48,966 nucleotides of DNA from the NCBI GenBank assembly GCA_027859095.1, contig JAQIBN010000087.1:1-48966 (forward strand), given 5' to 3'. This DNA is from Spirochaetia bacterium (GTDB taxonomy: Bacteria; Spirochaetota; Spirochaetia; B11-G9). Shown one piece after another: positions 24,993-37,400 of the stretch (the stretch's first letter is position 1; every line of letters starts with the position of its first letter). The position numbers and the translations under genes are program-made. The notes under the pieces were generated by a model. That model worked only from the letters and a program-made list of their open reading frames with translations, did not search any database and was not told the DNA's origin.

Positions 24993-25454
24993 ATGATTAG
25001 TTTTAAAAAGCTTGAAGATATTTTAAGAGAAACTATAAAGTGGGAAGAACAGATGAAAGATCTTTATGATGTTGCTGAGCTAGGATTACGAGGCAAAGAA
25101 GCAAAAGAACTTTTAGTTTTTCTAAAAGATTCTCATTACAGGCATCTGAATGTCCTTCAAAATATAAATGTAAATCATTATGGGCCTGATGAATGGATTA
25201 AATTTACAGCTGATTTTGGAGTTCTCCAGCAGATACCGCAACATCAAATTACACAACATTCCAGTGCTGAGGATATTTTTTCCAGGGTAAGTAATTATGA
25301 GACATCTCTTAAATTAGTTTATCAAAGGGTGTCTGAACATACTGTCTCTCAAAGTCAAACAGAATTATTTTCCTCCCTGGCACTTATGAAAGAAAATCAG
25401 TTATCTGCTATCAGTAATTTTATAGAGAGTTATTTTAATCCTAATGTGGGGTAG
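24993..25454 (+). CDS. Small helical protein, degenerate ferritin/rubrerythrin-like (paralog A)
   Basis: TIKWEEQMKDLYDVAELGLRGKEAKELLVFLKDSHYRHLNVL; clearly related to 28576-29028. Confidence 0.65.
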   Translation: MISFKKLEDILRETIKWEEQMKDLYDVAELGLRGKEAKELLVFLKDSHYRHLNVLQNINVNHYGPDEWIKFTADFGVLQQIPQHQITQHSSAEDIFSRVSNYETSLKLVYQRVSEHTVSQSQTELFSSLALMKENQLSAISNFIESYFNPNVG

Positions 25455-25457
25455 CAT

Positions 25458-26846
25458 ATGGTGCAGGAACTTAGTCCTATTGAGTCATCAGCATTTAAGA
25501 GTTTGAAAAAGGTTATAATATGGTTTATAACACTTCGATGGATAGCCTGTATCGGTGTTTCTATGGTACTGATACTTTCTTATTTTATTTTTCACTTTCA
25601 ACTTCAATACAAAATATTATCTATAACGACTTTTATACTGATACTTCTCAATCTTACATATAGTTTCTATTTTTACAGATATAAGAAACAATATCTTCAA
25701 AGAAGAGAGATTCACCAGTTTTTTCAGATACAGATTTTTGGCGATTATCTCTTGCTTCTTGTTCTTGTTTATTTTTCAGGATTTATGGAAAATCCCCTCA
25801 TTTATTTCTTTGTCTTCCATATTATAATCACATCCTTTCTATTTTCATCAAGAATTGTAACCCTGTATACAGCTATACTTGTCCTTGTTATTGGCAGTAT
25901 TTCATTCCTGCAGTATTTTTATATTATTCCATCATACCCCCTATTTACTAGTTATGGGATAATGGCGCCAATTGTCAGACTTGTTCAAACAGCTGGGTTT
26001 TCCGCATTATTAGTAATAACAGCATATCTGACTACCAGCACTATTAAAAAAATTGATACCAGGGGAAAGCAGTTCGAAATAGAACTCAATAAGTATAAAA
26101 GTCTGGATAAAATAAAGTCCAATTTCATACTTCAGGTAACTCATGAACTGAGAGGACCTCTTGCCGCGATCAGCGGTTTTCATGAAATGATACTTAGAGG
26201 TATAACAGGCGAAATTCAGGACCAGACAAGGCAGATAATAACCAAGGCTGACAGACGTACTGATAATCTACTCATAATAATTGGTGAAATGATTGATTTT
26301 GCCTATATAAAATCCAGTGATGATATTACTTTTGCTACTAAGGAACTGTCTGTCAGAAAAATTATTAGTGAGAATATCAGTAACATTACAACAAAGGCAG
26401 AACAGGAAGAGGTTCATCTTTCAGTTGCATGCCCAAAGCACCTTAGAATAAAAACAAATAGTGATCTGATAAACATAATTCTTGGAAACTTATTGTTTAA
26501 TGCTATAAAGTATACACAACCAGGGGGGAATGTGTCTTTGATCGCGTCAGAGAAAGGGCATGAAGTTCATATTGTTGTTGAAGATACAGGAATTGGTGTA
26601 TGTGAAGATGAAATTGAAAAAGTTTTTGATGAATTTTATCGTTCAAGAAGGGCTAGAGAAATGGAAAAAGATGGAACAGGCTTGGGGCTGTCCATAGTTA
26701 AGAAAGCGGTGGATGCACTTCATGGACGTATTATTGTACACTCAAAAGAGGGTAAAGGCAGCAGTTTCCATGTGTTTCTGCCGGCATATATTGATACAGG
26801 ACAAATACCAGGAGGAGAGAATGCAGAGAATACTGATAATAGATGA
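25458..26846 (+). CDS. Membrane histidine kinase (no recognisable PAS/HAMP)
   Basis: About 6 N-terminal TM segments; H-box VTHELRGPLAAISGF; N-box NLLFNAIKYT; G-boxes. Confidence 0.92.
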   Translation: MVQELSPIESSAFKSLKKVIIWFITLRWIACIGVSMVLILSYFIFHFQLQYKILSITTFILILLNLTYSFYFYRYKKQYLQRREIHQFFQIQIFGDYLLLLVLVYFSGFMENPLIYFFVFHIIITSFLFSSRIVTLYTAILVLVIGSISFLQYFYIIPSYPLFTSYGIMAPIVRLVQTAGFSALLVITAYLTTSTIKKIDTRGKQFEIELNKYKSLDKIKSNFILQVTHELRGPLAAISGFHEMILRGITGEIQDQTRQIITKADRRTDNLLIIIGEMIDFAYIKSSDDITFATKELSVRKIISENISNITTKAEQEEVHLSVACPKHLRIKTNSDLINIILGNLLFNAIKYTQPGGNVSLIASEKGHEVHIVVEDTGIGVCEDEIEKVFDEFYRSRRAREMEKDGTGLGLSIVKKAVDALHGRIIVHSKEGKGSSFHVFLPAYIDTGQIPGGENAENTDNR

Positions 26847-27183
26847 TGATGAGGATATTATTGAAACTGTTGGATCATTATTGAAATTTGAGGGTTACGA
26901 TGTTGATTTTGCTATAACGACAGAAAAAGGGATAGAGAAGTTGGAAGAAAACATTCCCGACCTAGTTTTACTGGATATTATGTTCCCTGATAAAAAAACA
27001 AAAGGCTTTGATGCAGCTGCAATAATTAAGGACTTATATGCTGATTTGCCGCTTTTTGTTTTTACAGCAATAAACAGGGAATATGCATTTGATTTTTCAA
27101 TGGATGATATAAAAGCTGACGAGTTTATCAATAAACCTGTTAAACTGGACAGGCTTTTAGAGTTAATAAAAAAATATACTTAA
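26821..27183 (+). CDS. Receiver-only response regulator (CheY-like)
   Basis: MQRILIIDDDEDI...LVLLDIMFP...FVFTAINREYAFDFS...NKPV. Confidence 0.92.
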   Translation: MQRILIIDDDEDIIETVGSLLKFEGYDVDFAITTEKGIEKLEENIPDLVLLDIMFPDKKTKGFDAAAIIKDLYADLPLFVFTAINREYAFDFSMDDIKADEFINKPVKLDRLLELIKKYT

Positions 27184-27188
27184 AGGGC

Positions 27189-35598: not shown

Positions 35599-35610
35599 AT
35601 CGGATATATA

Positions 35611-36999
35611 ATGGCAAGCTATCAGCTCAAAGGGTATTCTCCAGAGAATAAATCACTTATCACCCCGGGGACAGTAATATTAGATGAAAAAATGCTTCTG
35701 TCCAATGTCCATTGGTTTATAAGTGTTCGGTGGATAGTTATAATAATATTTATTATTGGCAGTACTGTAGGGAATTTGTTCTCAGTTCAACTGATAAACA
35801 TAGGTTTTAAAATACCCATATTGCCATTACTTGGGATGGCAATTCCATTATTACTAATGAATACGGCTTTTTTTCTATTTAGTCGTAACCTAAAAGTTTC
35901 TGAACATAAGAGTATCTCAATTAATCTATGGATACAGATTGTAATTGACTTAATTTTTGTAACCTGCCTGGTCTACTATATTGGCGCCACAGACACTTTT
36001 ATTCCATTTATCTATTTAATTCATATCACTCTCTCCTGCTTGTTTTTCCCTAAGCACCAAAGCATTATTATAGTTTGTATAGCTGCATCCTTGTATCTGC
36101 TTACTGTCTCACTTCAGAATACCGGTATTATCATGAAACAGACAGTATTTATTTCCAGGGATAATATCGATATGTTGAATTCCTCAGTTAGTTTGCTTCT
36201 TGCTTTTACAGCAGTATTAATTTGGTTTATTATCTGGTATTTTGTATCAACCCTTTCTGATATCGTCAGTGAAAGAGATCTTGCATTGAAAATAGCAAAC
36301 GAAGAATTGAAAAAGGCTGAAGAGGAAAAAACAAAACAGATACTTATCACAACTCATGACCTGAAAGCTCCATTTGTGGGAATAGAAAGTAATATAAGTG
36401 TGTTAAAATACATCCATTGGGAAGAACTTACACCTGAATGCCGGGATATTATTGATAAAATTGAAGTGAGGTCAAAAACCCTTCGAGAGAGAATTAAGCA
36501 GATACTTGACCTTGGCAATCTAAGAACCCAATTCCAAAACGATGTTCAAACAGAGCAGATAAGCCTGAAAAAGATTTTCGAAGAAATATTAGATGAAATG
36601 GTAGATATGATTAATGAGAAAAAAATCAAACTAGTCACAACAATTTTAGATATTACCGTAAACAGCAATAAAAATAATTTGTTAATTCTCTTTTCAAATC
36701 TTATTTCCAATGCAATATTTTATACCCAGAACGGCGAGACAATCCAAATTAACATGGAAAAACAGGAAAGTGAAGTTATTATCAAAATCAGTGATACAGG
36801 AATAGGGATAGCAGAGAAACACCTGGATAAAATATTTGATGAATATTTTCGAACACCTGAAGCCGCAAGATTTAATAAAATGTCTACCGGTCTCGGTCTT
36901 CAGATTGTCAAAACTATCACAGAGAAACTGGATCTTTCCCTAATGGTGGAAAGTGAAATAAATAAAGGTACTACATTTACAGTTGGTATAAGAATCTAA
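35611..36999 (+). CDS. Membrane histidine kinase
   Basis: Multi-TM N-terminus; H-box ITTHDLKAPFVGIESNI; N-box NLISNAIFYTQNG; DTGIGIAEKHLDKIFDEYFR. Confidence 0.92.
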   Translation: MASYQLKGYSPENKSLITPGTVILDEKMLLSNVHWFISVRWIVIIIFIIGSTVGNLFSVQLINIGFKIPILPLLGMAIPLLLMNTAFFLFSRNLKVSEHKSISINLWIQIVIDLIFVTCLVYYIGATDTFIPFIYLIHITLSCLFFPKHQSIIIVCIAASLYLLTVSLQNTGIIMKQTVFISRDNIDMLNSSVSLLLAFTAVLIWFIIWYFVSTLSDIVSERDLALKIANEELKKAEEEKTKQILITTHDLKAPFVGIESNISVLKYIHWEELTPECRDIIDKIEVRSKTLRERIKQILDLGNLRTQFQNDVQTEQISLKKIFEEILDEMVDMINEKKIKLVTTILDITVNSNKNNLLILFSNLISNAIFYTQNGETIQINMEKQESEVIIKISDTGIGIAEKHLDKIFDEYFRTPEAARFNKMSTGLGLQIVKTITEKLDLSLMVESEINKGTTFTVGIRI

Positions 37000-37013
37000 A
37001 AACGGAGGTTATT

Positions 37014-37400
37014 ATGATAAAAATAAAACTTGTAGACGATGACATCGAAATCACCGAAAATATTATGGCAATTCTTGGTGCTAAGGGATTTCAGGCAGAG
37101 GCATTCAATGAACTGAGTGGAGCTGTAGAGTTTATCAAGGATGGTATACCGGATCTCATTATACTTGATGTGATGTTTCCTGAGAATCCTGCAGGCGGTT
37201 TAGATCTTGCAAGAGAAATACGGACTCATAAAGAACTGGAAAAAATTCCTGTTATCCTTTTTACTAATATCAATCAGGAACTACCCATGGAATTCTCCCA
37301 GGAAGATATAGATGATGAATGGATGCCGGTACAGTCATTTATGGAGAAACCTATTAAACCGGAAGTATTAATTAATAAAATTAATGAGCAGCTGAAATAA
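37014..37400 (+). CDS. Receiver-only response regulator
   Basis: IKIKLVDDDIEITENI...LIILDVMFPENPAGGLDLAREIR...MEKPIKPE. Confidence 0.92.
   Translation: MIKIKLVDDDIEITENIMAILGAKGFQAEAFNELSGAVEFIKDGIPDLIILDVMFPENPAGGLDLAREIRTHKELEKIPVILFTNINQELPMEFSQEDIDDEWMPVQSFMEKPIKPEVLINKINEQLK

Follow-up and report, generated by a model that had tools for sequence, protein, structure and literature searches.

A recurring module of ferritin-like proteins, membrane sensor kinases and receiver-only regulators beside Nqr- and Rnf-type operons of a Spirochaetia bacterium

The window analyzed here is a contig of 48,966 nucleotides from a Spirochaetia bacterium (JAQIBN010000087.1). It contains two Rnf/Nqr-type operons on opposite strands, with a signaling block between them that encodes small proteins (Sm) of ~150 amino acids, membrane-bound histidine kinases (HK) and response regulators (RR). 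The gene order is SmA1-HK1-RR1, a HemN-like gene (27189-28457, reverse) between RR1 and SmA2, SmA2 (reverse), RR2, nqrA-F, SmB, HK3 and RR3. We found that the Sm-HK-RR arrangement recurred in many other genomes, that the Sm proteins were modeled with a ferritin-like fold from which the canonical diiron ligands have been lost, and that the regulators consisted of a receiver domain alone. Every gene named in a preliminary description of this DNA was located at the position given there. The features are listed below.

24993..25454, + strand: SmA1, ferritin-like protein of 153 amino acids with a degraded diiron site; divergent from the Rnf-type operon
25458..26846, + strand: HK1, RegB-like multi-transmembrane (multi-TM) sensor with HisKA and HATPase_c; G-F-M-E-N-P-L at amino acids 108-114
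26821..27183, + strand: RR1, receiver-only response regulator; its start overlaps the HK1 end by 26 nt
28576..29028, - strand: SmA2, second SmA, divergent from RR2; no kinase adjacent
29222..29590, + strand: RR2, receiver-only response regulator, directly upstream of the nqrA-like gene
35143..35598, + strand: SmB, ferritin-like and distantly related to SmA, immediately behind nqrF
35611..36999, + strand: HK3, multi-TM PilS-like sensor kinase with HisKA and HATPase_c
37014..37400, + strand: RR3, receiver-only response regulator
29638..35106, + strand: nqrA-F-like operon (associated complex), NqrF with 2Fe-2S, flavin adenine dinucleotide (FAD) and NAD domains
19897..24693, - strand: rnfC-D-G-E-A and a short 2Fe-2S protein (associated complex), divergent from SmA1
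13867..19875, - strand: NuoE, DRTGG-like, CBS-HATPase, PHP-like, thioredoxin-like ferredoxin, NuoF (HydB) and NuoG-N-like genes, continuing the Rnf-type operon

SmA1 and SmA2 were 41% identical, SmB shared ~16% identity with either and represented a distant second family, and none of the window Sm proteins was assigned a family by Pfam or NCBIfam. The preliminary description had placed the three Sm genes next to HK/RR genes. SmA1 and SmB adjoined both, but SmA2 had no adjacent kinase. It had also named both flanking operons Nqr; the one at 29638-35106 was indeed NqrA-F-like, but that at 19897-24693 was an Rnf/Nqr core lacking both RnfB and the FAD portion of NqrF, running into the NuoE/NuoF/NuoG-N-like genes.

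Conservation of the module and its neighboring complexes

The distribution of Sm genes was determined in a class sample of 394 spirochaete genomes by counting strong-scoring matches. SmA was present in 17 genomes and SmB in 13; both were found in 12, SmA only in 5, SmB only in 1, and neither in 376, giving Fisher p 3e-18 with no correction for kinship. Every one of the 44 strong Sm genes examined, from Spirochaetota and from Lentisphaerae/Kiritimatiellae/Verrucomicrobia, adjoined an HK and/or RR gene of the same families. The recurrence of the module was therefore strongly supported and not due to chance, and the small proteins of these two families were never found outside an HK/RR context; the preliminary description had named their occurrence mostly outside the context as an outcome that would count against it. 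The 44 loci included complete triads of the kinds SmA-HK1-RR1 (14) and SmB-HK3-RR (18), three further triads interrupted by contig ends, two loci with no RR nearby (L068 and L170), and six Sm-RR pairs without a kinase. The kinase-less pairs were SmA2-RR2 in the window and in two relatives, and SmB-RR in L062, L063 and L169, the last lying behind NuoE-HydB-HydA-like genes of a HydABC-like operon. Two more lone RRs, without Sm, were present in L055 and L059. A first genome scan with SmA1 alone as the query and plasmid searches with SmA1 and an HK1 sensor gave no match. A set of 26 weak SmB relatives (81 bits or less) had no RR of the same family nearby and was set apart from the strong family.

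We then considered the complexes beside the module. Window-type NqrF (E 1e-157 or better, 62-100% identity) was present in exactly the 13 genomes with SmB, and SmB followed it within about 110 bp in each of them. A second NqrF clade (42-48% identity) occurred alone in another 54 genomes, none of which had SmB, and where both clades were present (G042, G046 and G133) SmB was found only behind the window-type gene. SmA triads were more varied in their surroundings: divergent from an Rnf-type operon in the window, L017, L018, L070 and L071, divergent from nqrA in L066, near HemN/ResB/CcsA genes in L072 and L074, near polyprenyl-synthase genes in L073, near HydB and polyprenyl-synthase genes in L075, and on a short contig with no complex in L022. 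The constant element is the HK/RR pair, and the complex varies, usually being an NADH- or ferredoxin-linked flavin/iron-sulfur (Fe-S) complex. The module was tied more closely to the HK/RR pair than to Nqr, as had been proposed, because it was also present away from Nqr/Rnf and behind the HydABC-like operon. UbiA-family prenyltransferase, methyltransferase and polyprenyl-synthase genes were frequent neighbors, which fits a quinone signal.

Such surroundings might also reflect ordinary clustering in a respiratory island, with no functional link of Sm, HK and RR to the complexes. Heme, cytochrome c and quinone genes did lie in the same area, and some triads were away from Nqr/Rnf. However, the tight SmB-NqrF adjacency in 13/13 genomes, its confinement to one NqrF clade, and the fact that different complexes were accompanied in different phyla make simple clustering improbable.

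Several further features of these loci were observed. The NqrA-like protein of the window (29638-31068) carried an RnfC-like C-terminal 4Fe-4S dicluster, which is unusual for NqrA. In the reverse-strand run at 13867-24693, a short TM+2Fe-2S protein replaced RnfB/NqrF-FAD in the Rnf-type core, and a HATPase-like gene was included in the continuing genes; the whole resembled an Nqr/Rnf membrane core with a NuoEFG/HydBC module attached, and its order was kept in L017, L018, L070 and L071. The kinase-less SmB-RR pairs L062:10001-10987 and L063:10001-11053 were near CODH/ACS-like (Wood-Ljungdahl) genes, without Nqr. At L171:8576-10866, from the Verrucomicrobiota group, Sm was followed by a fused HK-RR protein, with NqrDEF, an ApbE-like gene and a CBS protein upstream.

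Fold and diiron site of the Sm proteins

Profile searches matched SmA to 2fzf (E 0.004) and 1vjx (E 1.3) and SmB to 1vjx (E 0.13), all ferritin-like, and three members of alignment A1 weakly matched Pfam Ferritin (best 4.5e-4). AlphaFold2 models (pLDDT 79 for SmA1 and 86 for SmB) were four-helix bundles with the long B-C crossover of the ferritin-like fold, an assignment that is firm for SmA1 and moderate for SmB. The top VIA-align match of both was 1vjx, with Z 15.2 and 2.5 A over 144 residues for SmA1, and Z 12.3 and 4.1 A over 145 residues for SmB, a Z reachable by chance in helical bundles. The next matches were largely Dps, YciF, bacterioferritin and rubrerythrin. Because this Z is moderate for a helical bundle and Foldseek with SmB returned no match at E<=0.001, the fold of SmB rests on Z 12.3 together with homology to SmA.

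All four distant relatives from outside the module (L076-L079) had the canonical diiron ligands E, ExxH, E, ExxH intact, whereas none of the module members did. In SmA, helix 2 was variable and the ExxH of helix 4 was changed to KxxQ; in SmB, helix 2 read RHRRH and helix 4 ExxD, with several acidic and His residues kept. Since the ligands were lost within the module and intact outside it, SmA and SmB are, judging from sequences and models, probably pseudo-ferritins, and SmB may still bind metal in a non-canonical way. SmA1 resembled TM1526 (1vjx), the Pyrococcus furiosus protein of 2fzf, and rubrerythrin in its whole-length fold match and weak profile matches. Unlike them, the Sm proteins had lost or changed diiron ligands and sat beside HK and receiver genes. 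The ferritin fold, and neighbors that are Fe-S enzymes and likely oxygen sensitive, would suit a working redox or iron enzyme providing rubrerythrin-like Fe-S protection, with the kinase pair linked by regulation only. The replacement of the ligands in every module member renders this decidedly improbable.

The Sm gene directly preceded the kinase gene in nearly all triads. This position favors the strongest alternative, in which Sm is an input partner that binds the kinase and feeds in a cytoplasmic signal such as iron, oxygen or complex occupancy, while the receiver acts elsewhere; ferritin- and hemerythrin-like folds are known to sense iron or oxygen in other systems. However, an input role does not explain the Sm-RR pairs without a nearby kinase, and the loss of the canonical diiron ligands also speaks against it. 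We regard it as unlikely.

The preliminary description had characterized the small proteins by an HxxH motif. HxxH was present in all three window Sm proteins but was not conserved in SmA, and so did not constitute a conserved functional motif. As a possible relic of the diiron ExxH, its spacing from the helix-1 Glu agreed in SmA1 (30 and 33 residues, as in L078); in SmB it was one residue off the ExxH register, which is itself unsure there. HxxH as a phospho-accepting His of the histidine phosphotransfer (Hpt) type was ruled out, as SmA has no conserved His.

A four-helix protein adjoining a lone receiver could nevertheless suggest a wider relay to a distant DNA-binding regulator, in which the receivers pass phosphate on or act as a sink for it and Sm is an Hpt-like protein. 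The genome contained 30 receiver-like regions, some in longer open reading frames, that might take part. The invariant phospho-accepting His of Hpt proteins was missing from Sm, with H46 of SmB replaced in several members that kept the module, and the fold comparison pointed to ferritin-like proteins, leaving such a relay very improbable.

Two other observations concerned Sm relatives. In a genome of the same genus (G004, L021:2700-3131), SmA1 was internally deleted to its two ends and HK1 was frameshifted near its end, with SmA2 intact. The weak SmB relatives (L172-L197, Verrucomicrobiota group) had a His on helix 1, an RHE-type helix 2 and no HK/RR, forming a separate ferritin-like subfamily whose conserved ligand pattern differs; several adjoined gyrase-like genes.

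Sensor kinases, lone receivers and a possible output

HK1 and HK3 each had HisKA, with its H-box, and HATPase_c behind a multi-TM part, and RR1, RR2 and RR3 kept the acidic pocket, phospho-Asp and Lys of receivers; as a kind, the two-component system is already known. The sensor region of HK1 alone matched NF033792, the ActS/PrrB/RegB redox-sensitive kinase family (E 3e-8), as did the sensors of its relatives in L070 (1.5e-13) and L074 (1e-10). Of 34 regions of its own genome that matched this profile, HK1 alone covered the membrane part. Moreover, G[FY]xxNP[FLM] was found in 16/16 aligned HK1s, with the first Gly, Asn and Pro kept. The GGXXNPF of RegB, which this segment resembles, is a reported ubiquinone-binding site (PMC8191878, PMC10525716). 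These sequence features supported sensing of the quinone or redox state by HK1, and to that extent the redox-responsive character ascribed to the system. Compared with RegB/RegA (PrrB/PrrA, ActS/ActR, RoxS/RoxR), HK1 was alike in its multi-TM sensor and membrane-part match, with a G-x-x-x-N-P resembling the quinone motif, but its RR1-type partner was without the DNA-binding domain of RegA, and a ferritin-like partner was added. The HK3 sensor weakly matched the membrane domain of PilS-type 6-TM kinases (PF25323, E 2.6e-4, under the Pfam gathering score). The partner of PilS, PilR, is a sigma-54 activator, whereas that of HK3 was a lone receiver.

As had been stated, none of the RRs had a DNA-binding output domain; all three were Response_reg only, of about 120-128 amino acids. 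They shared unusual loops with their relatives: the DIMFP/DVMFP segment contained an insertion, and the beta4-alpha4 region was long. RR1 was 54% identical to RR2 and 33% to RR3 (58.8 bits); the next in the genome were generic receivers (34%, 42.6 bits), and no other receiver of the RR1/RR2/RR3 kind was found there. DVU0259/DivK-type single-domain regulators were similar in their receiver-only form and gave moderate profile matches (48-56 bits), far under the family cut-off (160 bits).

Three features favor an output in which Sm makes the protein contact: the RRs have no output domain, the kinase-less Sm-RR pairs persist, and the attached complexes differ. An action on Nqr by contact, as the preliminary description had suggested, would be in keeping with the lone receivers and the kinase-less pairs. 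In the mechanism we propose, the multi-TM kinase (RegB-like HK1 or PilS-like HK3) would sense how reduced the quinone pool is, or a comparable signal in the membrane, and phosphorylate its dedicated receiver. The phospho-receiver would not act on DNA; it would bind, or be read out by, SmA or SmB, which, having lost diiron chemistry, may serve as a protein-binding effector or adaptor. The Sm-RR pair might then set the activity or assembly of the neighboring Nqr-like, Rnf-NuoEF-like or HydABC-like complex. We hold this sequence, from kinase through lone receiver and pseudo-ferritin contact to the neighboring complex, as a tentative proposal with somewhat less than even chances. The fuller claim, that a quinone-sensing kinase, a lone receiver and a ferritin-fold pseudoenzyme exert direct post-translational control over respiratory or electron-bifurcating complexes with no transcription, is rather doubtful.

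A number of points weighed against the proposal. Full-length HK1 scored 89.4 bits against the RegB family cut-off of 350, and, when the motifs were compared, Phe/Tyr stood in place of the second Gly of the RegB motif. The redox-box Cys of RegB lies about 40 residues after the phospho-His. This residue is Cys265 (PMC8191878), and HK1 had no Cys at that spacing and none between 229 and 324; a different Cys near +96 was common among HK1s. HK3 had no NPF motif, showing mostly G-S/A/P-x-x-T-F/V where HK1 has the NP motif. The target may be something other than the complex, given that some triads lay at a distance from all Nqr/Rnf genes. Many loci came from draft metagenome-assembled genomes.

The usual view of two-component systems is that they chiefly control transcription, and Nqr, Rnf and HydABC complexes are seen as governed by their expression and by the supply of substrates. 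Searches of the literature that combined Rnf or rubrerythrin with a kinase and a regulator turned up neither a relevant paper nor a description of such a gene set, a search on the Desulfovibrio lead DVU0259 likewise gave no relevant one, and PMC10102598 contained nothing on a comparable module. Within the literature searched, a RegB- or PilS-like sensor with a lone receiver and a ferritin-fold partner, linked to complexes of the Nqr/Rnf/HydABC type, seems to be new. If the proposal is true, it would provide a tangible example of energy conversion in bacteria being controlled directly through phosphorylation, ferritin-like proteins would gain a new role as signaling adaptors, and the quinone pool would feed back onto ion-pumping NADH/ferredoxin complexes without transcription. 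As the parts of the module are small and, except for the kinase, soluble, binding by Sm is directly testable.

Minor features of the window

A partial, frameshifted and broken copy of the HemN-like gene was present at 38561-39197 (- strand). Adjacent recombinase-like open reading frames at 1893-4715 (- strand), one of them frameshifted, apparently formed a mobile element.

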